From Candidatus Desulfaltia bathyphila (GTDB taxonomy: Bacteria > Desulfobacterota > Desulfobacteria > Desulfobacterales > ETH-SRB1): DNA of 34,508 nt. The stretch covers positions 1-34,508 of the forward strand of contig JACNLL010000042.1 of assembly GCA_014381545.1 (NCBI GenBank). The letters are read 5' to 3'. Positions within the stretch are counted from its first letter, which is position 1. Each line of letters opens with the position of its first letter. Under the pieces are notes generated by a model, which saw only the letters and a program-made list of their open reading frames with translations, ran no database searches and was not told where the DNA came from. Made by a program: the position numbers and the translations under genes. Of the stretch, positions 15,360 to 33,469 are shown piece by piece.

Positions 15360-15863
15360 CTATGTTGACTGTTTTAGCAATTTCAATTTGGCATCTTCCT
15401 CATCCATAGCCTTCATCCCCTCATTCCCGATTTCAAGAAGTTTGCTGTGCACTTCAATTATCGAGCGGATCTGAACTTCGATTTGCATTCGCTGCCGTTT
15501 CAATTCTGCGATGTCTTCATGCAACTGGGCAAGCCTTTTATGAGCTCTGTTTAAGATTTTTTCCGCCTTTAATTCAGAATTTGCGATAATTAACTCAGCC
15601 GATTTTCGAGCATTTTCCTTCATCTCATTCAGAACTTTCTGAGAGTTGAGCATGGCGCGCTTGAATGTTTCTTCACGCTCTTTGTATCCCTGGCTTTCGA
15701 GCTTGATTCTGCGAATCTCGTTTTGTGCATTCTCATTTTCTTGCTGTAACAATTCAAAAGTATCAGTCATCTGTTCAAGGAACCTGTCAACCTCCCTGAC
15801 GTCAAATCCTCTGAATCTTACTTTAAACTGCTGCTGTTGAATTTCAATTGGTGTGATTTTCAT
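15360..15863 (-). CDS. DivIVA-domain coiled-coil protein
   Basis: DivIVA-family proteins bind curved membrane and organise polar or septal machinery. The 167-residue product has the N-terminal DivIVA signature MKITPIEIQQQQFKVRFRGF, followed by DVREVDRFLEQM, and then an almost uninterrupted coiled coil (about 35-150) rich in E, K, R and Q. The YggT gene lies just upstream, as in many bacteria including Gram-positive dcw-linked clusters, and pilT just downstream. A role in cell polarity or division is known for the family; a link to polar pilus placement is my inference from the neighbourhood. Confidence 0.85.
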   Translation of the reverse strand: MKITPIEIQQQQFKVRFRGFDVREVDRFLEQMTDTFELLQQENENAQNEIRRIKLESQGYKEREETFKRAMLNSQKVLNEMKENARKSAELIIANSELKAEKILNRAHKRLAQLHEDIAELKRQRMQIEVQIRSIIEVHSKLLEIGNEGMKAMDEEDAKLKLLKQST

Positions 15864-21125: not shown

Positions 21126-21860
21126 ATGATTCAGACTGATTTGATCCACATGGTATATAATGCTTGTCTTATGGTGCAGTTTGTGTTGCTTATCCTGCTT
21201 TTTTTTTCCATTACATCATGGGCCATTATGATAGTTAAATATCGATATATCAAAAGAGCATTTAAGGAGTCGGTATATTTTACAGATTTTTTCTGGAAAA
21301 GCCGCGATCTTTCCGATGCTTTTGTAAAGGCCAAACATCTTCAAGGAAGTCCTGTTGCAAGAATCTTCCGTGTAGGATATTTTGAGCTTAAAAAACTAAG
21401 CCAGTCAGGTGTTTCAGTAACATCTCAATCTCAACGATCATCTGAGACTGAAATTCCATCATTAAACGCCAAATTCGCAGGCATAGATAATCTCAAGAGA
21501 GCTTTGCGACGGGCAATTAATACAGAAACAACCCGAATGACCCATCTTGTTCCTTTTCTTGCCACAACCGGCAATACAACTCCCTTTATTGGTTTGTTTG
21601 GCACAGTATGGGGTATCATGAATTCTTTTCATGGTATCGGGCTTAAAGGTTCGGCCAGTCTGGCTGTTGTAGCTCCTGGAATTTCCGAGGCGCTCATTGC
21701 AACAGCAGCAGGTTTGGCTGTGGCAATACCTGCGGTTATTGCTTTTAACTACTTTATGCAGAAAATAAGAATTATTGAAACCGAACTACAAAGTTTTTCC
21801 GCAGATTTTCTTAATATTATTGAGCGGGACTTATTAAGTGAAAAGGAGAGTGGCAAATGA
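21126..21860 (+). CDS. tolQ: TolQ, MotA/TolQ/ExbB proton channel protein
   Basis: TolQ forms the proton channel with TolR that energises TolA in outer-membrane constriction and integrity. The 244-residue protein has TM1 at about 14-38 (MVQFVLLILLFFSITSWAIMIV). The conserved C-terminal MotA/ExbB block includes FLATTGNTTPFIGLFGTVWGIMNSFHGIG and PGISEALIATAAGLAVAIPAVIAFNYF, containing TM2 and TM3 with their channel threonines. A cytoplasmic loop of about 100 residues includes a serine-rich insertion (QSGVSVTSQSQRSS). An ACCGGAG site lies upstream of the ATG. It overlaps tolR by 4 bases (ATGA) and heads a complete tol-pal cluster. Confidence 0.93.
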   Translation: MIQTDLIHMVYNACLMVQFVLLILLFFSITSWAIMIVKYRYIKRAFKESVYFTDFFWKSRDLSDAFVKAKHLQGSPVARIFRVGYFELKKLSQSGVSVTSQSQRSSETEIPSLNAKFAGIDNLKRALRRAINTETTRMTHLVPFLATTGNTTPFIGLFGTVWGIMNSFHGIGLKGSASLAVVAPGISEALIATAAGLAVAIPAVIAFNYFMQKIRIIETELQSFSADFLNIIERDLLSEKESGK

Positions 21861-22282
21861 CATCCGGCGACCACAATAGACTCATGTCGGATATAAATGT
21901 GACGCCGTTTGTTGATGTTATGTTAGTGCTATTGATCATTTTTATGGTAACCGCACCGATGATGATGCAAGGAGTAGATGTTTCTTTGCCGAAAACAGTT
22001 TCGGAACCCCTTTCTTCTAAAGAAGATTACATTGTTATTACTATTGACAGCAATAATCGGGTATATATTAATGATTACCACGTAACGCTTGATTTTCTTA
22101 AAGAAAAACTTATAAAAATTTTTGAGGGCCGTATCGACCGTGAGATATACCTTCGTGCTGACAAAGGAATTCCTTATGGGGTAGTAGTTCGTGTTATGTC
22201 GGAGATAAAAGGGGCGGGAATTGATAAGGTAGGTATGGTGACAGAGCCGATTATTGATGGGAACAAAAAGAAAAAAAGCTAA
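21857..22282 (+). CDS. tolR: TolR, ExbD/TolR family
   Basis: TolR is the partner of TolQ and has one N-terminal membrane anchor. The 141-residue protein opens with the ExbD/TolR signature SDINVTPFVDVMLVLLIIFMV, in which the Asp of P-F-V-D-V-M is the proton-conducting residue. The periplasmic domain contains IYLRADKGIPYGVVVRVMSEIKGAGIDKVGMVTE, as usual. The tolQ/tolR start-stop overlap implies coupled, stoichiometric synthesis. Confidence 0.94.
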   Translation: MTSGDHNRLMSDINVTPFVDVMLVLLIIFMVTAPMMMQGVDVSLPKTVSEPLSSKEDYIVITIDSNNRVYINDYHVTLDFLKEKLIKIFEGRIDREIYLRADKGIPYGVVVRVMSEIKGAGIDKVGMVTEPIIDGNKKKKS

Positions 22283-22288
22283 TGGCAA

Positions 22289-23170
22289 ATGAAAAAAAAT
22301 TTAAACCGTCATGCTTATTTGCTTCGAGTGATGGAAGAGGAACCGCGCGTCCTGTTTTTTACTTTTGCTGTTTCCGCAATATTGCATATGATCTTTTTTG
22401 CGGCTTTGATTTTTGTGCCCGGCCCAAAGCCATATAAACATTTTTCACCTTCTGTTATAAATGTCAGCATGGTTACATTACCTGGCCAGAAGAAAGCGCC
22501 GGGCAGACTAACCGGTTTTGAGCTGGAAAAGAAAATCGCAAAACCTGAAAAGGCGCCGGTTTCCAGGATTTCACCCGAAAGAGTCGCAAAATCGGATCGA
22601 GATTCCTCGAAAGCCATTTCTGTAAGCCCTAAAAGAAAGAGGATAAAAAAGTCGCTCAAAAAAAAGACTTTTAAATCTTCGAGGGTTGTGAAAAGCGTTA
22701 TTGCGCGGGTTGAAAAGAAGGTTGAGGAGGCAAGGCCAAATCCTGTTGCCGAGGCAATTGACCGTTTAAAAAATAAAGTGGCGATTGACCGTAAAGAGCC
22801 TCAATCAGGAACAGGCGCGACGTCATCTTCTATCAGCGTACCGGGCAGTCCTGGGGGCGGCGGAAAAAAAGCGCTTGAATTAATAGATATATATAGGGCG
22901 CAAATTTCATATTATATTGAAAAAAACTGGGCTTTTTCCAAACAGTTGGCTGGGGGGCGTACCGATTTGGCGGCTGTGGTGGTGATTAGGATTATGCGAA
23001 ATGGCGAGATTAAAGATGTTTGGTTTGAAAAAAAGTCAGGCAACAGCTATTTTGATGAGTCTGCCTATAAGGCGGTTATGAAATCAAATCCGCTTCCCAT
23101 GCTTCCAAAAGGGTATTTGCGCCCGTATTATAACCTTGGTCTGATTTTTACTCCATCAGGCTTGCGATAG
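22289..23170 (+). CDS. tolA: TolA/TonB-like energy-transducing protein
   Basis: The protein spans the periplasm, linking TolQR to TolB/Pal. Of its 293 residues, about 20-45 form a single membrane anchor. Residues 60-185 form a lysine-, proline- and serine-rich spacer. Residues about 195-290 form a TonB/TolA C-terminal domain (ISYYIEKNWAF, then VVVIRIMRNGEIKDVWFEKKSGNSYFDESAYKAV). The C-terminus fits the TonB_C or TolA_bind_tri type equally well, but its position between tolR and tolB makes TolA the functional call. The spacer is much shorter than in E. coli TolA and is not alanine-rich. Confidence 0.85.
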   Translation: MKKNLNRHAYLLRVMEEEPRVLFFTFAVSAILHMIFFAALIFVPGPKPYKHFSPSVINVSMVTLPGQKKAPGRLTGFELEKKIAKPEKAPVSRISPERVAKSDRDSSKAISVSPKRKRIKKSLKKKTFKSSRVVKSVIARVEKKVEEARPNPVAEAIDRLKNKVAIDRKEPQSGTGATSSSISVPGSPGGGGKKALELIDIYRAQISYYIEKNWAFSKQLAGGRTDLAAVVVIRIMRNGEIKDVWFEKKSGNSYFDESAYKAVMKSNPLPMLPKGYLRPYYNLGLIFTPSGLR

Positions 23171-23235
23171 GGCTTATTTAAAGAACCTGAAACCGATCAC
23201 TTTAGATAGAAGTATGATGGTTGATATTAATGTTT

Positions 23236-24579
23236 ATGAAACGTGTTAACAGATTGCGGGCATGGCCCGCTTATATTATCTTCCTGGTTATGATGGCATC
23301 CTTTTTGATTTGTCCTGCTTTGTGCCTGTCAGAATATGATTATGTTGATATAAACAGTCCTTTTCTGAGAAAGATACCGATTGCAATTCCATTATTTAAG
23401 ACCATGGCTAAAAGTCCGGTTGAGAAACGCTTGTCTGAAAAGGCTTCTGATCTGCTCTCTGAAACTTTGGAATTTACAGGTTATTTCAAAATGCTTGACC
23501 GGGATGCCTTTCTTGTTGATCCTGAGAAATCTGATATAACCGCTTTGAACATCAATTTTCAGAACTGGACAAGTATCGGCGCTGAACTTTTGATAACCGG
23601 AAGTCTCCAGGTTAAGGATGAGATTATTGACATGGAGCTCAGGTTGTATGATACTTTTAAATCAAGATTGCTAATAGGTAAAAGATACAGAGGATGGATA
23701 AATGATCAACGGAAAATGATACGTCGTTTTTGCAACGATGTTATTCATTGTCTAACCGGCAAAAGGGGTATTTTTGATAGTAAAATAGCTTTTATCTCAA
23801 CAGGCTCAGGGAATAAGGAGATATACATATGCGAATTTGATGGTTACAATCCGATCCAAAAAACTCATAATAAAAATATCACCCTTTCTCCGGCATGGTC
23901 GTGTGACGGAAAATGGATTGCTTACACTGCTTACAAAAAAGGCAGGCCTGATCTTTACATAGAGCATTTAAAGGAAAAACGCGGTTTTATAGTCGAAAAA
24001 AAAGGTATTAATATTACACCTGCCTGGGTTCCCGGCAAATTTGCATTGGCTGCGACTCTTTCATTTTCAGGTGACCCGGAAATTTATATGTTGACCGGAA
24101 CCGGTAAAATTATTAAGAAATTGACTAACAAACGGGGAATTGATGTGTCCCCTTCATGGTCTCCGGACGGTAAAAAGATGGCCTTTGTATCAAACAGGTC
24201 TGGAACGCCGCAGATTTATATTATGGATATTGATTCCAGAAACGTCGAAAGATTAACTTTTCAGGGGCGATACAATACATCACCAAGCTGGTCTCCAGAT
24301 GGGGACAAGATAGCCTATTGCGGCATGGAAAACGGAGAATTTAATATCTATGTAATTGGTGTTGACGGCAATGACCTGCTTCAATTGACCTTTAATGAGG
24401 GAGACAATGAATCCCCTTCATGGTCGCCGGATGGAAGCCTTATCGCTTTTAGTTCAAACAGAGAAGGCCCTTATAGAATTTATGTTATGAGCGCCTATGG
24501 AACCGACCAGAGATCTTTGCTTGCCCTGCCGGGTGAGCAAACAAATCCGAGATGGTCGCCAGGCATAGTAAGTAATTAA
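23236..24579 (+). CDS. tolB: TolB, periplasmic beta-propeller of the Tol-Pal system
   Basis: TolB binds Pal and TolA in the periplasm. From ATG 23236 the product is 447 residues. It begins with an export signal ([20 protein letters not shown] and onwards, cleavage near the C-L-S region). An N-terminal alpha/beta domain follows (about 30-170, with IPIAIPLFK and [11 protein letters not shown]). The six-bladed propeller shows repeated S-P-S-W-S-P-D-G blocks (for example [17 protein letters not shown]) with Y-I-M-D or Y-V-M strands. An ATG at 23230 and a TTG at 23221 are alternative starts; none has a clear Shine-Dalgarno. Confidence 0.94.
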
Positions 24580-24611
24580 AATATGGCAGACTTATAATAA
24601 AGGAGGAGAAA

Positions 24612-25199
24612 ATGCGGAAAAAAATATGGATAAGTTTGGTTTTATTGCTGGTAATTCCTGGATTGCTGTGTATTGCTTCATGCGCTAAAAAGGCTGTTAA
24701 GGTTGAGCCTGCTGAGGTTGTGTCGGCTGAGGATGAGGCAGCAAGAAAGGCTGCCGCCGAAGCGGCTGAAAGAGCAGAGCAGGAAAAGCTGGCAAAGCAG
24801 CGGGCTATTGAGGTGCAGCGCCTGAAAGAGGAGCAGGCGGCGCGTGAGAAGATGGCTGCCAGGAATATGTTCATTAATGAAAATATTTATTTTGACTTTG
24901 ACAAGTATAATCTTCTTCCTTTGGCCCGGAAGATTTTAAAGAGAAAAGCAGATTGGCTGTGGAATAATCCCGACGTGTCCGTGATTATTGAGGGGCATTG
25001 TGATGAACGCGGCACCAATGAGTACAACCTTGCTCTTGGAGACAGGCGGGCCGAAAGCGCAAAGGCATACCTGGTTGATCTAGGTATTGCCAGAGCTCGA
25101 CTGACAACTGTAAGCTATGGTGAAGAACGTCCTGTAGATCCCGGCCACAATGAAGTTGCCTGGGCAAAAAACAGGCGGGCCCATTTCACAATAGAATAA
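24612..25199 (+). CDS. pal: Peptidoglycan-associated lipoprotein Pal
   Basis: Pal tethers the outer membrane to peptidoglycan. The 195-residue precursor has a signal peptide ending in the lipobox I-A-S-C (Cys24). A highly charged, alanine/glutamate-rich helical segment follows (about 32-85). The OmpA-like domain begins [11 protein letters not shown], with the peptidoglycan-binding core [26 protein letters not shown] and the C-terminal NRRAHFTIE. The helical spacer between the lipid anchor and the OmpA domain is longer than in E. coli Pal. GGAGGAG precedes the ATG. Confidence 0.96.
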
Positions 25200-25237
25200 A
25201 CTAAGGATCATCTCCAAAAGAGTTTGTAGGATCATAA

Positions 25238-25280
25238 GGATTGAAGATTCCCTGTAGCAAGCTACAGGGTTCTTCAATCC
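25238..25280. repeat. Strong hairpin between pal and cpoB
   Basis: GGATTGAAGA (25238-25247) pairs with TCTTCAATCC (25271-25280), and inside it CCCTGTAG (25250-25257) pairs with CTACAGGG (25262-25269) around a CAAG tetraloop. No T run follows, so it is more likely a palindromic repeat or mRNA-processing/stabilising hairpin than an efficient terminator. It could lower expression of cpoB relative to pal. Confidence 0.6.
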
Positions 25281-25317
25281 TCGAACCCTTTGCATCGAAA
25301 GCTTTAATATGTTTGTT

Positions 25318-26160
25318 ATGAAAAATATTGTTTTATTTATTATCTGTCTTGCCATTTTGTGTGGGTGCGCGATGCAGCAGGATGTTATAGCGCTCTATGA
25401 TCGTACGACTGTTCTTGAACAGCGCAATGTTGAGCTGGAGAAGGATGAGGCTCAGCTTAAATCCCTGATGCAAGAATGCATAAAAAAACAGGGGAAAAAA
25501 GAGCGTCTTCATAAAACTAAGTTTGCAGATATGCATGTCATGTTAGACGGGATCAGGGAGGAAATCCGGGCCTTAAATGGAAAACTTGAGGAAGCCGAAT
25601 ACCTGTTAAAGCGGAAAATAGCAGCTCTTGAAGATGCGGAAGCAAAGAGTAAAGATATTTTAGATAAAGTTGAAGAAAGATCTGCTTTAAATTACGATCG
25701 CATTGTAAATATACAGCAATATCTTAATTTAGAGTCTTCAGGCTCTGATTCAAAAATCGAAACTGTTGGCAAAACCGAAAAGGGTTTTTCGGAAGATGAA
25801 GTTTACACATCAGCAAAACAGGCATTTGATCAGGGTGATATTGAGGCTGCTCGTGAGGGGTTTCAAAAAATAATAAAGCAATATCCAAAGTCACGGCATA
25901 CCGACAATGCACAATTCTGGATCGGCGAAATATACTATCGTGAAAAATGGTATGAAAAAGCGATATTGGAATACCAGAAGGTGTTAGAAAAATATCCGAA
26001 AGGCAACAAGGTGCCCGCTTCGCTTTTGAAACAGGGGCTTGCTTTTTTAAACCTCGGAGAAAAGGCAACTGCCCGTCTTATTTTAAACGAGTTGGTTGTA
26101 AAACACCCTAAATCAAATGAAGCAAAGATAGCAAAGCAGAAATTAAAGGGGCTGAAATAA
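25318..26160 (+). CDS. cpoB: CpoB (YbgF), Tol-associated coiled-coil/TPR protein, predicted lipoprotein form
   Basis: CpoB coordinates outer-membrane constriction with peptidoglycan synthesis at the septum. From ATG 25318 (280 residues) the protein begins MKNIVLFIICLAILCGC, with a plausible lipobox and Cys17; an ATG at 25309 is in frame. Residues about 25-125 form a long coiled coil. The C-terminal part has tetratricopeptide repeats typical of CpoB: YTSAKQAFDQGDIEAAREGFQKIIKQYP, then NAQFWIGEIYYREKWYEKAILEYQKVLEKYP. E. coli CpoB is soluble rather than lipidated, so the anchor is a difference. The stop codon overlaps the apparent ruvC start. Confidence 0.9.
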   Translation: MKNIVLFIICLAILCGCAMQQDVIALYDRTTVLEQRNVELEKDEAQLKSLMQECIKKQGKKERLHKTKFADMHVMLDGIREEIRALNGKLEEAEYLLKRKIAALEDAEAKSKDILDKVEERSALNYDRIVNIQQYLNLESSGSDSKIETVGKTEKGFSEDEVYTSAKQAFDQGDIEAAREGFQKIIKQYPKSRHTDNAQFWIGEIYYREKWYEKAILEYQKVLEKYPKGNKVPASLLKQGLAFLNLGEKATARLILNELVVKHPKSNEAKIAKQKLKGLK

Positions 26161-26690
26161 AAAACACAGCGATTAAGACCATCGGCATAGATCCCGGCCT
26201 GGCCTCAACCGGCATCGGCATCGTCAGAGGGACGGAGCTTAAGGTTGAAGCTTATTCCTATGGCAGCATAACTACTTCAAAAAATATTCCATTGCCAAGT
26301 CGCCTCAACAAAATCTTTTCAAAACTTTTTATCATTTTAAAAGATGAAAAGCCGGATCTTATGGTTGTAGAGGATATATTTTCTCTTCAGAAATATCCGA
26401 AGTCTGGTATAACTCTGGGTAAGGTGACAGGTGTAATTCTTCTTGCCGGGAACAAACTTGATTTGCCTGTTATCGAAGTACAGGTGCGTGAAGCTAAGCA
26501 AATTTTGACGGGCAACGGTAATGCCAGTAAAATGCAGCTCGAAAGGGCGGTCAGACATTTTCTAAATTTGACGACACCGATTAGGCCGTACCATGCTTCT
26601 GATGCAATTGGTTTAGCCCTTATAGGTCTTTTTCGATACCAGGACGGTTTAAAAACTCAAACAATGAAATCCCATAAGACAAATAAATGA
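26157..26690 (+). CDS. ruvC: Holliday junction endonuclease RuvC with an apparent non-canonical start codon
   Basis: RuvC resolves Holliday junctions with RuvAB. The reading frame clearly extends upstream of the first ATG/GTG/TTG-type codon (26292) to include the essential N-terminus KTIGIDPGLASTGIGIV. From the ATA at 26157 the product is 177 residues, the usual length. Catalytic residues are Asp12 (IDPG), Glu72 (VVEDIF) and Asp149. His146 stands three residues before, as in the H-x-x-D form known from Thermus RuvC. AAAGGGG (26145-26151) is a good Shine-Dalgarno 5-6 bases before ATA, and ATAA overlaps the cpoB stop just as ATGA overlaps do. An ATT at 26172 is the other candidate. The 3' end overlaps ruvA by 4 bases. 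Confidence 0.88.
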   Translation: MKNTAIKTIGIDPGLASTGIGIVRGTELKVEAYSYGSITTSKNIPLPSRLNKIFSKLFIILKDEKPDLMVVEDIFSLQKYPKSGITLGKVTGVILLAGNKLDLPVIEVQVREAKQILTGNGNASKMQLERAVRHFLNLTTPIRPYHASDAIGLALIGLFRYQDGLKTQTMKSHKTNK

Positions 26691-27310
26691 TAGGTTATAT
26701 TGAAGGAAAGTTGCTGAAAAAAGAGGATGAGCGCATACTGCTTCTTGCCGGTCAGGTAGGATATGAGGTTCTGCTTCCTGCATTTGTTATGGACAGTTTT
26801 AAGTCAAAGGTGATCGGTGACGAGGTTTCTCTGTATATTTATTACCAACAAACCGAACGGCAACCAAAGCCTGTATTGATCGGTTTTAATCTTGAGGTAG
26901 AGAGAGAATTTTTTCAATATTTTATTTCTGTTGAAGATATAGGCCCTCTGAAAGCAGTTAAAGCCATGAGCCTTCCTGTTCGTGAAATAGCCAGGGCCAT
27001 TGAATCAAAAGACGTTGCCGGGCTTAAGCGATTAAAAGGCATCGGGAACAGGACCGCGCAGAAAATAATTGCCACACTTGAAGGCAAGATGAATAAGTTC
27101 GCATTAATCCGCAAAACAGAAAAGGAGCGGGAGGAGACGCCTGTTGCCCGGGACTTTTCAAGGCAGGTGTTTGATGTGCTTGTTGGGCAGCTGGGTTACA
27201 GAGCTGGCGATGCCAAACGGATAATTTCTGAAGCTGTGAAACGCAATATAAATATATCAACGCCCGAAGAACTTATTGAAGAGGTATATCGTGGAGAAAA
27301 GACCCCTTAG
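26687..27310 (+). CDS. ruvA: Holliday junction branch migration protein RuvA
   Basis: RuvA binds four-way junctions and loads RuvB. The 207-residue protein has the OB-fold N-terminus ([19 protein letters not shown]), and domain II with helix-hairpin-helix motifs ([15 protein letters not shown] and [22 protein letters not shown]). Domain III contacts RuvB ([24 protein letters not shown]). ATGA overlap with ruvC and a 20-base overlap with ruvB indicate a tightly coupled ruvCAB operon. Confidence 0.95.
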
Positions 27311-28340
27311 CGGCATGCTTTCCGGATCAAGTCTGCCTATTGACCGTGAACCGGAGATTCTGTCATTGCGTCCGGAAAGACTTTCAGAATATATCGGCCA
27401 GACAGAGATAGTCGAAACACTTAAAATAGCGATAGAAGCCGCTACGCAGCGTAAGGAGCCGATAGATCATGTCCTTTTTCATGGCCCTCCGGGGCTTGGG
27501 AAAACTACCCTGTCATATATTATTGCCAATGAAATGGGGAGCAATATTACTGTGACTTCAGGGCCGGCGCTTGAAAAAGGCGGAGATTTGATAGGAATTC
27601 TGACCCACCTTGAAGAAGGGGATGTCCTGTTTGTAGATGAGATTCATAGAATGCCAAAGACGGTGGAAGAGTTTCTATATCCTGCAATGGAGGATTTCGC
27701 CGTTGATTTTATGTTTGATAAGGGGGCGCATGCCCGTAGTCATAGATACCGTCTAAACACTTTTACCCTTGTCGGCGCAACTACTCGTGTCGGGCTGTTA
27801 TCGGCCCCTTTGCGGGATCGATTCGGCATATTAAGAAGCCTTGATTTTTATGGAGAAGAGGATCTTGTAAAAATCGGCAGACGTTCTGCAGAATTACTTA
27901 AAGTTAGTATTGATGATAAAGGCGCAATTGAGCTTGCAAAGAGATCCAGAGGAACTCCAAGAATTATAAACAGGCTTCTTAAACGTGTAAGGGATTATGT
28001 CCAGGTTCGGGCAGATGGAAAAATTACAAAGAAAACGGTTGAAGAAGCTCTATCTCTAGAAGGAGTTGATAAAAAAGGGCTGACTCATCTTGATCGCCGA
28101 TACCTTAAAACAGTAATCGAGTTTTATCATGGCGGTCCGGTCGGCATTGAAGCAATTTCTGCAACACTTCAGGAAGAGGCGGATACGCTCGTTGACGTTG
28201 TTGAGCCGTATCTTCTTAAAATCGGTCTGATTATAAGGACCCCTTCAGGAAGAAAGGCTACTGAATCGGCATACAGGCACCTTGGTTTTAGTGTTCAGCA
28301 ACCAGCAGAAGGTCAGAAGGTCAGAAGATTAGAAGATTAG
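27291..28340 (+). CDS. ruvB: Holliday junction branch migration ATPase RuvB
   Basis: RuvB is the AAA+ hexameric motor of branch migration. The product is 349 residues from GTG 27291, which has AGAGG just upstream; a TTG at 27276 is also in frame. Motifs are [12 protein letters not shown], Walker [13 protein letters not shown], Walker [11 protein letters not shown], sensor 1 [20 protein letters not shown], and the C-terminal winged helix with [13 protein letters not shown]. The normal end of the family is near YRHLGFSV. Beyond it the sequence [11 protein letters not shown] is encoded by a tandem octamer array (28307-28338), so the last ten or so residues appear to be repeat-derived. Confidence 0.96.
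28307..28338. repeat. Tandem octamer array at the 3' end of ruvB
   Basis: Four 8-base units run head to tail: AGAAGGTC, AGAAGGTC, AGAAGATT, AGAAGATT. They lie within the ruvB reading frame and end on its TAG stop (28338-28340). Confidence 0.75.
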
Positions 28341-29295: not shown

Positions 29296-30672
29296 ATGGC
29301 TCGTTATATTCAGATGCGGATATTTTATACATGGCTTGCAGTGATTATGTTGCCGGTAATTAGCTCCGGAGTTTCAGCATCACAGCATAAGGAGGCCGGG
29401 TTGAAAGCCGTTGCAAGCCGTCATCTGAGCAGGGCCAGAGCGCCGGATGTGCTTATTTCATTTGATAATGACAGTAGTACAAAATATGCGATGGTGGTTG
29501 AAAAGGAGACTCAGCAATTACTTGTCTATTCTTATGATGATTATGATGATTCCTTTAAGGAAATGTCTATCTTTAAATGTTCAACCGGCGAAATGGCCGG
29601 GGGAAAATTACGTTCCGGAGACAAAAAGACGCCTGAAGGGGTCTACTTTTTCACCAATGAGCATAAAAAGAGGGATCTTTCGCCAATCTATGGGAATAAG
29701 GCCTTTCCGATAGATTATCCTAATTTTTTTGATCGTATTGAAGGCCGTAGAGGCCATTCAATTTGGCTTCATGGAACCAACCAGTCTATAAAAGCAAGGG
29801 ATTCAAACGGGTGTGTTGTGCTGGCAAACCAGGATATTGATAAACTGGCAAAATATATTGTCTTGCATAAAACCCCTATTATCATTGTGGACAAGCTTTC
29901 GTATGCTTCTTTTGATGATAAGAGCAGGATCAAGAGCTCTATCTTTAATTTTCTTAAACAATGGAACCATGCGCTTGAGAACGGCACTTATCATGAATAT
30001 CTGGAGTGTTATGCTCCTGAATATTTGCCTGATATTTCCTGGTGGACCGAGTGGAACAAAGTTAAAAAGATTTATTCTGCGTCTAATCTGGACCTATCTG
30101 TTGGAATGAAAAGAAGATCAATTTTAAGGCATAACGGGGTTTATGTTATTTTGTTTGATCAGTTTGTAAGATCATCAGGCAAGGATTTACATGCAGGAAG
30201 CAAAAAACTTTATTTGGCGGATAAGGGAGGTTACTTCAGGATAGTCGGCGAAGAATGTCATGGAGCTTCAACAAACCAAAAGAATAACAATCCTCTTGTT
30301 TCAGCAGGTCTTAACCTGAAAAGATTGCTTAAAGGTAAGTATGAAATTGCAAACTTTGTTGATGGGTGGTTGAAAGCATGGTCTGCAAAGGATATTAAGC
30401 GATATGGAAGTTATTATTCATGCGATTTCCGTTTCCAGGGAATGAATCTCAAAGCATGGCTTAACTACAAGGCTCGCTTGAATCGTAAATACGATTTTAT
30501 TCATGTTTCAAAAGATGATATGATTATTCAAAAAGGAAAAAATAAGATTACAGTGTCATTTACTCAGACTTACACATCGAGCGCATTCAAGGCAAAGGGA
30601 ATAAAAAAGCTTATATTAATACAGGGAAAAGGTGGATGGAAGATCTTTCGAGAAACCTGGCAAAAATTGTAA
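29296..30672 (+). CDS. Exported L,D-transpeptidase/carboxypeptidase-fold (YkuD) protein with C-terminal NTF2-like domains, Csd6-like
   Basis: YkuD enzymes cut or crosslink peptidoglycan stem peptides with a catalytic cysteine. The 458-residue protein has an N-terminal signal or anchor (about 8-28). The catalytic domain (about 60-195) contains KTPEGVYFF, HSIWLHG with His159, and the catalytic SNGCVVL with Cys173. Two segments follow, about 210-320 and 340-458, each starting F-x-x-W-x-x-A and having a beta-rich end; the second ends GGWKIFRETW, like NTF2/SnoaL-type folds. YkuD plus C-terminal NTF2-like architecture is that of H. pylori Csd6, a stem-peptide trimming enzyme needed for helical shape. 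Start choices are GTG 29293, ATG 29296 and ATG 29314. The gene overlaps the next by 37 bases. Confidence 0.85.
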   Translation: MARYIQMRIFYTWLAVIMLPVISSGVSASQHKEAGLKAVASRHLSRARAPDVLISFDNDSSTKYAMVVEKETQQLLVYSYDDYDDSFKEMSIFKCSTGEMAGGKLRSGDKKTPEGVYFFTNEHKKRDLSPIYGNKAFPIDYPNFFDRIEGRRGHSIWLHGTNQSIKARDSNGCVVLANQDIDKLAKYIVLHKTPIIIVDKLSYASFDDKSRIKSSIFNFLKQWNHALENGTYHEYLECYAPEYLPDISWWTEWNKVKKIYSASNLDLSVGMKRRSILRHNGVYVILFDQFVRSSGKDLHAGSKKLYLADKGGYFRIVGEECHGASTNQKNNNPLVSAGLNLKRLLKGKYEIANFVDGWLKAWSAKDIKRYGSYYSCDFRFQGMNLKAWLNYKARLNRKYDFIHVSKDDMIIQKGKNKITVSFTQTYTSSAFKAKGIKKLILIQGKGGWKIFRETWQKL

Positions 30673-31508
30673 AAGCGCACACACCGCCAAAATCATCAAA
30701 ACCGTCAAAAAAGGCCGGTTCCTGGAGTATTTTGTTTTTAGGGGATCATGGGCAGATAATATCGATAAAAAGGCCCAAAAAGCTGGTAATTACATTAGCG
30801 GTTGTACTGGTTGTCGCTATAGTTTCTTTTTCCTGGTTATTAATTGTTTTCAAAAGCACAAGAGAAGATAATAAGAATTTGAGTAGTGCTTTGGATATTT
30901 CACGCCAGAAGGTTATGTCTTTGCGTGATGAAAAGGATCTGCTAATGGTGCGTCTTGTTGTGGCGGAATCCAAGATTAAAAATAAAGACGCCGATATGTC
31001 TCTTGATACAGACCCTTCTGTTGAAACCGAGGCTGATTCCGAAAAGGTTGACAAAACTGCTTCTTTGCCAAACAAAAAGCAGGTCGAAGAGAAAACAGCT
31101 TTTACCCGGTCTGAAAAGTTTAAGAAAACAACTGTCGAGGATTTTATTGTTTTATTTGAACCTGACACCGCTGCATTGAAGGTTGAATTTAAAATAGTAA
31201 ACACTTCTCAAAATGCCCAGCCTGTTTCAGGGCATGCATTCGTGATATTAAAACAAAGTGAAGTTGATCAAAAAAGCTGGTTGACATTTCCATCCGTGCC
31301 TCTGGCTTCAGGAAAACCTACCCTGTTTAAAAAAGGGCAACATTTTTCAATATCGCGCTTTAAAACCATGAAATTTAAAACACAGAATAAAGTCGATCCA
31401 AAACAATTTAAAACAGCCACTGTATTTGTATTTACCACAACAGGTGAACTGCTGCTGGAAAAGAGTTTTCCAGTAGAGATTAAAGAAACTGTTTCAAGCC
31501 AAACATGA
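30636..31508 (+). CDS. Single-pass membrane protein of unknown function with coiled coil and C-terminal beta-rich domain
   Basis: I do not recognise this 290-residue protein. It has a basic, proline/lysine-rich N-terminal segment (1-49), expected to be cytoplasmic, which includes SWSILFLGDHGQIISIKR. One transmembrane helix (50-72) is followed by a probable coiled coil (about 75-115, TREDNKNLSSALDISRQKVM), then an acidic low-complexity linker (116-155). The C-terminal domain (about 160-285) is predicted to be beta-rich and periplasmic (LKVEFKIVNTSQNAQPVSGHAFVILK). It overlaps the Csd6-like gene by 37 bases and precedes the Csd4-like gene by 21. Its topology is that of a scaffold joining cytoplasmic bactofilin to periplasmic hydrolases, a role filled by Csd5/Csd7 in H. 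pylori. No sequence similarity to those is claimed. Confidence 0.75.
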   Translation: MEDLSRNLAKIVKAHTPPKSSKPSKKAGSWSILFLGDHGQIISIKRPKKLVITLAVVLVVAIVSFSWLLIVFKSTREDNKNLSSALDISRQKVMSLRDEKDLLMVRLVVAESKIKNKDADMSLDTDPSVETEADSEKVDKTASLPNKKQVEEKTAFTRSEKFKKTTVEDFIVLFEPDTAALKVEFKIVNTSQNAQPVSGHAFVILKQSEVDQKSWLTFPSVPLASGKPTLFKKGQHFSISRFKTMKFKTQNKVDPKQFKTATVFVFTTTGELLLEKSFPVEIKETVSSQT

Positions 31509-31529
31509 TGGCATCGTAAAAGGACAACA

Positions 31530-33056
31530 TTGTTTAAGAAAAACAAACAGACCGGATTTAACATGGTCTGCAAAGCCATAATTATCGCGTTTTTAATTAT
31601 CCCTGTTTTTTTTCTGCCGGGTATTGCCTCAGCACAAAAAAGGGTTCATACAATATTTTTTGAGGGCACAGATCATGAACTTCATGTGTACAATATTTAC
31701 GGTGAAATTCCCGGGAAAACGCTTCTGCTTATAGGCGGCATACAGGGAGATGAACCAGGAGGCTTTCTTGCTGTTGACCATTATGCAGATATCAGCCTGG
31801 CTAAAGGGAATCTGATAGTCGTGCCAAGAGCCAATTTTCAGTCCATTGTTTTATATCGCCGGAAAATAAATGATGATATGAATCGGAAGTTTGCAGAAGA
31901 CCGTAAAAACAACTATGAAACTAAGATCGTTGAAATTTTAAAAAAATTGATTAATGAAAGTGATTGCCTGCTTAATCTGCACGACGGATCAGGTTTTTAT
32001 TCCGACAAATGGGAGGGGTCTGAAAGAAATCCAACAAGATATGGCCAGTCGATTATTGCTGATTGCGAGTTCCATGTAAATTCTGAAACAGGGCAGACAC
32101 TTTATCTTGGGGATATGGCAAGATCGGTAGCCGCAAAGATTAATAAAGATATAAAGGATGCCGCTTATTACTTTCATTTCAACAATCACAGAACAATTGA
32201 AAAAACCTCATTGCATAAGGAGCAACGCAAATCCGCAACATATTATGCTTTGTATAAACGCGGGATACCGGCATTTGGAATTGAGACCAGCAAATCGTTG
32301 CCCCTGGAGATGAAGGTGCGGCATCATCATCTTGCGATTAACGCATTTATGGAAAAACTCGGTATTGTTCTTGAGACGCCGGGCCTGAACCTTGACAAAC
32401 CTGTGCTTGATTATCTGATTATTTCGGTAAATGATTCTTTTCCGATAGTTGTTGAAAACCAGCAGACGCTGAATATTAATTCCGGAGATACTGTTTTAAT
32501 ATCGCATATGGAATCTAATTACGAAAGAGGGCTTTCTGTAGATATTATCGGCTACGGAACTCTTCACGATATGCGAAAAAAAATTAGAATAACCGGGCCT
32601 ACACGAGTTGTCGCAAGAAAAGATTTCTTTTCATGTGGAAGCCTTTATATAGCGATTAATAAAAGCAAAAAAAGGATGGCTCAAGGTATATCGATCACAA
32701 AAAGGCCGTTTTTGACCCAGCATATAGATTCCTTTAAAATAAAAATTAACGGCAAGGAACATATCTTCTCAAACAATAATAGTGTTAAACTGATCAAGGG
32801 CGATAGGTTTGAAATTGTTGATGTAATCGGCGGTCCCGGAGACCCGGCAGATATGATCGTGAATTTTAAAGGCTATGTCGGCAATACCCGTCATAATACC
32901 GGAGAAGACAGGGGGTATGTAATTAACACGGCCAGAGATCTTTGGAAACGTTATTCTCTGAACAAAAAGGGGATTGCCTATCGGGTGATAGTTACCTATA
33001 ATGAAAAGCAGGTAGGCGAATTGATTATCGATTTGAAAGAGCCTGTTTTACAATAG
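31530..33056 (+). CDS. Exported M14/M99-type zinc carboxypeptidase, Csd4-like, with a Gln zinc ligand
   Basis: Csd4-type enzymes trim muramyl tripeptide to dipeptide in the periplasm. The 508-residue protein starts at TTG 31530 with AGGA five bases upstream and has a signal peptide (about 12-35, ending ASA). The metal site reads GGIQGDEPGG: Gln72-x-x-Glu75, with the third ligand His151 in NLHDGSGF. M14 enzymes normally have His in place of Gln72; glutamine is the atypical zinc ligand described for H. pylori Csd4 (M99). N118-R119 in DDMNRKF match the substrate-carboxylate motif, and Glu252 in FGIETS the general base. Residues after about 275 form extra beta domains of unknown role, as in Csd4. 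Confidence 0.87.
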   Translation: MFKKNKQTGFNMVCKAIIIAFLIIPVFFLPGIASAQKRVHTIFFEGTDHELHVYNIYGEIPGKTLLLIGGIQGDEPGGFLAVDHYADISLAKGNLIVVPRANFQSIVLYRRKINDDMNRKFAEDRKNNYETKIVEILKKLINESDCLLNLHDGSGFYSDKWEGSERNPTRYGQSIIADCEFHVNSETGQTLYLGDMARSVAAKINKDIKDAAYYFHFNNHRTIEKTSLHKEQRKSATYYALYKRGIPAFGIETSKSLPLEMKVRHHHLAINAFMEKLGIVLETPGLNLDKPVLDYLIISVNDSFPIVVENQQTLNINSGDTVLISHMESNYERGLSVDIIGYGTLHDMRKKIRITGPTRVVARKDFFSCGSLYIAINKSKKRMAQGISITKRPFLTQHIDSFKIKINGKEHIFSNNNSVKLIKGDRFEIVDVIGGPGDPADMIVNFKGYVGNTRHNTGEDRGYVINTARDLWKRYSLNKKGIAYRVIVTYNEKQVGELIIDLKEPVLQ

Positions 33057-33124
33057 ATACTTGGCCATGTTGTATGAACGTACTTTTATGAGAGTGTTCG
33101 CTTTTGCGGTTCAGGAGAGGCATT

Positions 33125-33469
33125 ATGTTGAACAAATCGGATAATATTTCTATCATTGATGAGGGGCTGACAGTTGATGGCACTGTTTCTGTTAAAGGAA
33201 AATTGATAATAAAGGGGGCTGTGAAGGGAACGCTTGTCGGAGAAACCGTGATTATTGCCGAAGGCGGGGTTGTTTGCGCTGATACTAAGGTCGCAAGCAT
33301 AACAATGGGCGGCAAATTTGAAGGGGATCTCAATGCGTCTAAAGAGCTGATTATACTTTCAACAGGAAGCTGTGACGGCAGGGTCGTATGTAAAAGTCTT
33401 GTTGTTGAGGCCGGTGGAATATTAAATGCCGAGGTAAATTGTATTTCGAAACAGGAGCCGATAAAATAA
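33125..33469 (+). CDS. Bactofilin (CcmA-like)
   Basis: Bactofilins polymerise without nucleotide into cytoskeletal filaments that position cell-wall enzymes. From ATG 33125, preceded by AGGAGAGG, the product is 114 residues. The whole chain is a right-handed beta-helix-type repeat: strands of alternating hydrophobic residues with glycine turns (GLTVDGTVSVKGKLIIKGAVKGTL, then GGKFEGDLNASKELIILSTG). A short N-terminal tail and a C-terminal SKQEPIK tail flank it. A TTG at 33104 is in frame but less likely. It is the last gene of the 29296-33469 set and the orthologous type to H. pylori CcmA. Confidence 0.92.
   Translation: MLNKSDNISIIDEGLTVDGTVSVKGKLIIKGAVKGTLVGETVIIAEGGVVCADTKVASITMGGKFEGDLNASKELIILSTGSCDGRVVCKSLVVEAGGILNAEVNCISKQEPIK

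Follow-up and report, generated by a model that had tools for sequence, protein, structure and literature searches.

A four-gene cassette of Candidatus Desulfaltia bathyphila combines two predicted peptidoglycan carboxypeptidases, a putative membrane adaptor and a bactofilin

The analyzed stretch of DNA (the window, 34,508 nucleotides) stems from the 2.07-Mb draft genome of Candidatus Desulfaltia bathyphila and harbors at positions 29296-33469 a cassette of four genes, all on the plus strand. The four open reading frames that an earlier note on this DNA had placed here were all found by an ORF check, and a Pfam profile search over the four proteins returned, in gene order, YkuD plus Cds6_C, nothing significant, Peptidase_M99 and Bactofilin, i.e. 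the protein types that the note had named (a YkuD enzyme with an NTF2-like tail, a single-pass membrane protein, an M99 enzyme and a bactofilin). Gene 1 (29296-30672) encodes a Csd6/Bd1075-like periplasmic YkuD enzyme, gene 2 (30636-31508) a single-pass membrane protein, gene 3 (31563-33056; alternative start TTG at 31530) an M99 metallocarboxypeptidase and gene 4 (33125-33469; alternative start TTG at 33104) a bactofilin. Positions 30636-30672 (plus strand) belong to both gene 1 and gene 2, and the same overlap of 34 nt (stop codon left out) is found in 68/96 loci, a constant length that likely reflects translational coupling. Taking the longest ORFs, spacers of 21 bp (genes 2-3) and 47 bp (genes 3-4) follow. 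Scans for promoters and terminators yielded no excess over shuffled sequences. Upstream of the cassette the window carries tolQ-tolR-tolA-tolB-pal-ybgF and then ruvC-ruvA-ruvB (21126-28340), followed by a SAM hydroxide adenosyltransferase gene; 19 bp separate its end from the cassette's first ATG, and a convergent gene ends 9 bp past the cassette's last stop. Elsewhere in the window a DivIVA-family gene (15360-15863, minus strand) adjoins two type II/IV secretion ATPase genes.

The gene 1 protein comprises a signal peptide, a YkuD domain (aa 64-197; PF03734, 1.2e-17) and Cds6_C NTF2-like matches (1.4e-24) in two stretches, which correspond to two NTF2-like domains at about aa 206-322 and 351-453, the latter encoded at 30346-30654 (plus strand). 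The two halves match each other with a probability of 97.8% (hhalign), and the tandem is also seen in the AlphaFold model. By profile comparison the best match is Bd1075 of Bdellovibrio, a curvature LD-carboxypeptidase (1.1e-71; PDB 7O21), besides Pgp2 (1.6e-31) and Csd6 (2.1e-31), and these same three proteins are the top PDB matches of the AlphaFold model. The putative catalytic residues H159, G160 and C173 are invariant in 24/24 homologues. Judged by its YkuD H/G/C residues and C-terminal NTF2-like domain, gene 1 would be a member of the Csd6/Pgp2/Bd1075 family of LD-carboxypeptidases. The label "Csd6-like" that had been proposed for it holds for the YkuD/NTF2-like type, while the protein itself is closer to Bd1075 than to Csd6 and its NTF2-like domain is duplicated. 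Just past the end of the second NTF2-like domain, W455 aligns with Bd1075 W303, a residue required for convex-face targeting and reported to be absent from other LD-carboxypeptidases (PMC8938487); it is a tryptophan in 19/24 homologues. Gene 2 begins within the stretch around W455, so that part of the conservation seen there may come from dual coding. At locus L200, which is without the gene 1/gene 2 overlap, the NTF2-like domain still ends in EEW.

In the AlphaFold model of the gene 2 protein (mean pLDDT 82) a short N-terminal helix precedes a beta-hairpin at residues 32-44 (30729-30767, plus strand). A long helix follows at 47-121, which includes a coiled coil and the transmembrane (TM) segment, and a disordered linker connects it to an Ig-like sandwich at 165-284 (31128-31487, plus strand). 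The predicted topology places the N-terminal tail with the hairpin in the cytoplasm and the Ig-like domain in the periplasm. No significant Pfam family was obtained with either the single protein or a set of 28 relatives. DUF6776 (PF20567), considered on the grounds of its architecture, exceeded its curated cut-off in 0/247 genomes, with an E value of 0.021 for the best adaptor member. In the PDB the best Foldseek results were ammonia/methane monooxygenase subunits and glycosidase domains with low TM-scores, so that a generic Ig-like fold is all that is supported for this domain. The gene occurs in 87/147 genomes of the class, and we treat its product as a newly named, so far undescribed family. 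In two relatives the Csd6-like enzyme and the Ig-like domain of this family are joined in a single protein (L200:7774-9312 and L202:8124-9854). That the membrane protein acts as the adaptor of the cassette, a guess already made in the earlier note, is the best explanation of its predicted architecture and gains support from our data.

A candidate bactofilin-binding site of this adaptor is suggested by analogy to LmdC, in which a conserved cytoplasmic beta-hairpin preceding the TM segment binds bactofilin (PMC10945521). The turn glycine of the adaptor hairpin, G39, is among just six invariant columns of the adaptor alignment, and an LmdC-type M23 protein encoded in the window genome itself has a tail similar to that of the adaptor. 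Profile comparison with LmdC-type M23 proteins gave a weak match with a probability of 49% (one comparison, TM segment included) and of 8% for the hairpin alone. Position, topology and secondary structure thus agree with the LmdC hairpin but the profile match is weak, which makes the likeness a lead, with homology unproven.

The gene 3 protein matches Peptidase_M99 (PF17033) at 3.6e-38 and 132 bits against a cut-off of 27; its M99_C match is weak (6e-4) and below the cut-off. A profile of 21 homologues matches Helicobacter pylori Csd4 at 2.8e-47. Csd4 is known for its unusual Q-E-H metal ligands, plus R86 and E222 (PMC4220969), and all five positions (Q46, E49, H128, R86 and E222 in Csd4) are intact in gene 3 as Q61, E64, H140, R100 and E241, invariant in 21/21 sequences. 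Thus, the M99 family and the active-site residues expected of a "Csd4-like" enzyme are present. Orthology to Csd4 is not supported: in an M99 tree rooted at its midpoint and including one outside sequence, Csd4 of H. pylori clusters with Desulfobacterota M99 genes that stand alone (support 1.0); the cassette M99 is part of the other clade. Gene 3 therefore encodes an M99 enzyme of a clade sister to Csd4, and two M99 subfamilies are separated here that one database label would merge. The two types were divided by Pfam bit score ahead of adjacency scoring, and the tree upholds this division. The stand-alone genes (L174-L182, L209), nearer to H. pylori Csd4, never adjoin an adaptor gene; at L174 and L180 a TPR-protein gene comes after them, and at L180 a YgjP-like metallopeptidase gene after that. 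These genes may belong to another shape system.

Within the order, M99 is the least retained member of the cassette. The same-genus locus L033 is without it and has a spacer of about 200 nt with palindromic, REP-like sequence (L033:4050-4270) where M99 would be; the remainder of this genome yielded no M99 either. In genome G002 the M99 gene contains an internal stop codon. An apparent M99-bactofilin fusion (L052:8232-10415, identical in L126; one MAG of the Olavius algarvensis Delta 4 symbiont) probably arises from read-through of the ORF, with the bactofilin probably starting at an internal GTG, and was not counted as evidence.

Gene 4 encodes a bactofilin (PF04519, 4e-19; 69.1 bits against a cut-off of 27.9) that matches the BacA structure at 6.5e-14. 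The genome possesses another bactofilin (on contig C100), 25% identical to the cassette's, which was rejected as the partner of the cassette: it sits after mreC-mreD-mrdA-rodA-type genes, with no cassette gene adjoining. In L187:2718-7729 this second bactofilin of the genome is seen to come after genes resembling mreC/mreD, a penicillin-binding protein and rodA, a further setting of wall synthesis. Also considered were M23 genes of the LmdC type, which the same genomes do possess, yet their 1.5-kb flanks are without a bactofilin of the cassette type.

Conservation of the neighborhood, one of the points on which the earlier note had staked its reading, extends well beyond a single genome. In a survey of 144 genomes of the class, a cassette-type M99 gene lies within 2.5 kb of an adaptor gene on the same strand in 35/35 cases, and near a Cds6_C (Csd6-like) gene in 32/35, as compared with 0/9 for stand-alone, Csd4-type M99 genes. 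The order csd6-adaptor-M99-bactofilin recurs among 60 loci around adaptor relatives, and exactly this order is seen in 55/80 named loci, contig ends interrupting many of the remainder. Together with the frame overlap and the short gaps, this bears out the operon-like arrangement. The proposed placement in the Desulfobacterota was supported, the nearest named relatives of the window genome being a Candidatus Desulfaltia MAG of the same genus with its own locus and Eth-SRB1 of the same family, both Desulfobacterales. Within the order, the tol-pal-ruv context flanks the cassette in about 100 loci, so that synteny at this level is partly plain vertical inheritance. In other classes the tol-pal-ruv surroundings are lost and csd6, adaptor and M99 are still together, with or without bactofilin. 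At many loci outside the order the bactofilin gene is not adjacent, and tsaD or other housekeeping genes come after csd6-adaptor-M99 in several classes; inside the order, too, several adaptor loci are without an adjacent bactofilin. The link between enzymes and adaptor is thus firmer than that to bactofilin. Retention within the order is highest for adaptor and bactofilin, followed by the Csd6-like enzyme and finally M99, and several genomes retain just adaptor plus bactofilin or are without M99. The cassette is modular and, at variance with the earlier suggestion, self-contained in some genomes and incomplete in others.

Among characterized systems, the cassette resembles BacA-LmdC of Hyphomonas neptunium and Rhodospirillum rubrum (PMC10945521) in the combination of a bactofilin with a bitopic protein that has a cytoplasmic beta-hairpin (here predicted), a TM segment and a periplasmic coiled coil, leading to peptidoglycan hydrolysis. 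In contrast to LmdC, an M23 endopeptidase, the adaptor carries a non-enzymatic Ig-like domain at its end; the enzymatic part falls to YkuD and M99 carboxypeptidases that are secreted as proteins of their own, and the cassette is without an M23 gene. By analogy it may work like a split LmdC, with the hydrolase detached from the membrane protein; having no M23 domain, it does not belong to the LmdC family. With the Csd4/Csd5/Csd6/Csd7/CcmA set of H. pylori it shares the enzyme types, the bactofilin and the principle of transmembrane adaptors. It differs in being one operon (in H. pylori, according to the earlier note, the loci are scattered), in an M99 that is sister to Csd4, in two NTF2-like domains and in an adaptor with an Ig-like domain, where Csd5 has an SH3 domain. 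Bd1075 has one NTF2-like domain, whereas gene 1 has two, plus a linked adaptor and bactofilin. The Campylobacter pair Pgp1/Pgp2 offers a parallel for DL- and LD-carboxypeptidases acting sequentially (here predicted); Pgp2, unlike gene 1, has a single NTF2-like domain.

Enzymes and adaptor, linked across the phylum and in the window's order usually accompanied by bactofilin, probably form a single apparatus that sets the sites of wall trimming. We consider the four genes likely to be a single morphogenetic module, positioned by bactofilin, that directs the trimming of stem peptides to chosen wall sites. By analogy to work on Csd6, Csd4, Bd1075 and LmdC, bactofilin would polymerize at the inner face of the membrane and its filament would recruit the adaptor via the juxtamembrane beta-hairpin. 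The adaptor would span into the periplasm by its coiled coil, capped with the Ig-like domain, which in turn may dock or activate the secreted Csd6-like enzyme and perhaps M99 as well. As an L,D-carboxypeptidase, the Csd6-like enzyme would then remove D-Ala from tetrapeptides (tetra to tri), and M99, as a D,L-carboxypeptidase, meso-DAP from tripeptides (tri to di). Fewer cross-linkable stems would locally bias wall growth and hence shape. More tentatively, and short of an even bet, we propose that an undescribed adaptor family of the Desulfobacterota physically relays positional cues from the cytoskeleton through the inner membrane to free secreted carboxypeptidases, with an LmdC-like hairpin on the cytoplasmic side and an Ig-like domain for docking on the periplasmic side.

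Alternative scenarios differ in how much of this they would change. That the four genes are chance or merely inherited neighbors with no common function is very improbable: conservation of the surrounding region within the order would fit such a scenario, but linkage persists in the different surroundings of other classes, the 34-nt overlap is constant in length and the Csd6-Ig fusion exists, all of which argues for a shared function and for contact between Ig-like domain and enzyme. YkuD folds serve L,D-transpeptidase and amidase as well as L,D-carboxypeptidase reactions, and gene 1 also matches the meso-DAP protein amidase DpaA/YafK, albeit more weakly; a module that alters cross-linking or frees lipoproteins is conceivable on these grounds. 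Against it stand the best sequence and fold matches, which are three LD-carboxypeptidases with NTF2-like domains, and the neighboring M99, whose substrate would be the product of an LD-carboxypeptidase, and we regard it as quite unlikely. Less remote, albeit still unlikely, are two sets side by side, with Csd6-like enzyme and M99 held by the Ig-like domain and a separate bactofilin, unbound by the adaptor, joined mainly in Desulfobacterales. The loci of several classes where tsaD or another housekeeping gene takes the place next to csd6-adaptor-M99 would agree with this arrangement; yet adaptor and bactofilin are often retained in the class where the enzymes are missing, and a conserved predicted cytoplasmic hairpin would be superfluous for a purely periplasmic clamp.

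The most serious alternative concerns the output of the module and not its composition. The same four genes may maintain an ordinary rod or oval shape, or serve at the division site with Tol-Pal/CpoB, making neither curvature nor a stalk, a scenario to which we assign a substantial chance, somewhat below even. The cassette directly follows tolQRAB-pal-ybgF-ruvCAB and the SAM hydroxide adenosyltransferase gene, a context kept at about 100 loci of the order, and among the carriers of the cassette are MAGs classified as Desulfotignum and Desulfobacula; Desulfotignum phosphitoxidans is rod-shaped (PMC4046663). The cell curvature or stalk-like shape suggested in the earlier note is accordingly a guess, given full sets in MAGs of genera with rod-shaped members. 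On the other side, each of the nearest characterized relatives (Bd1075, Csd6, Pgp2 and Csd4) has a role in curvature or helicity (PMC8938487, PMC4599014, PMC3310797), and other classes retain the linkage without tol-pal-ruv.

A search of the open-access PMC literature found no description of this gene set (subscription papers and preprints lay outside its scope). For Bd1075, its authors noted that no mechanism is known for targeting to one lateral wall (PMC8938487). The morphogenetic module proposed here is a likely answer to one-sided enzyme placement written as an operon, which unites the scaffold, the adaptor and the two trimming enzymes and whose adaptor-enzyme part has been kept over a phylum. 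The new adaptor family receives a defined candidate binding site (the hairpin, residues 32-44), and the Csd6-Ig fusion predicts the adaptor's docking partner. If true, the adaptor relay would be a general answer to the question of how LD-carboxypeptidases reach one side of the cell.
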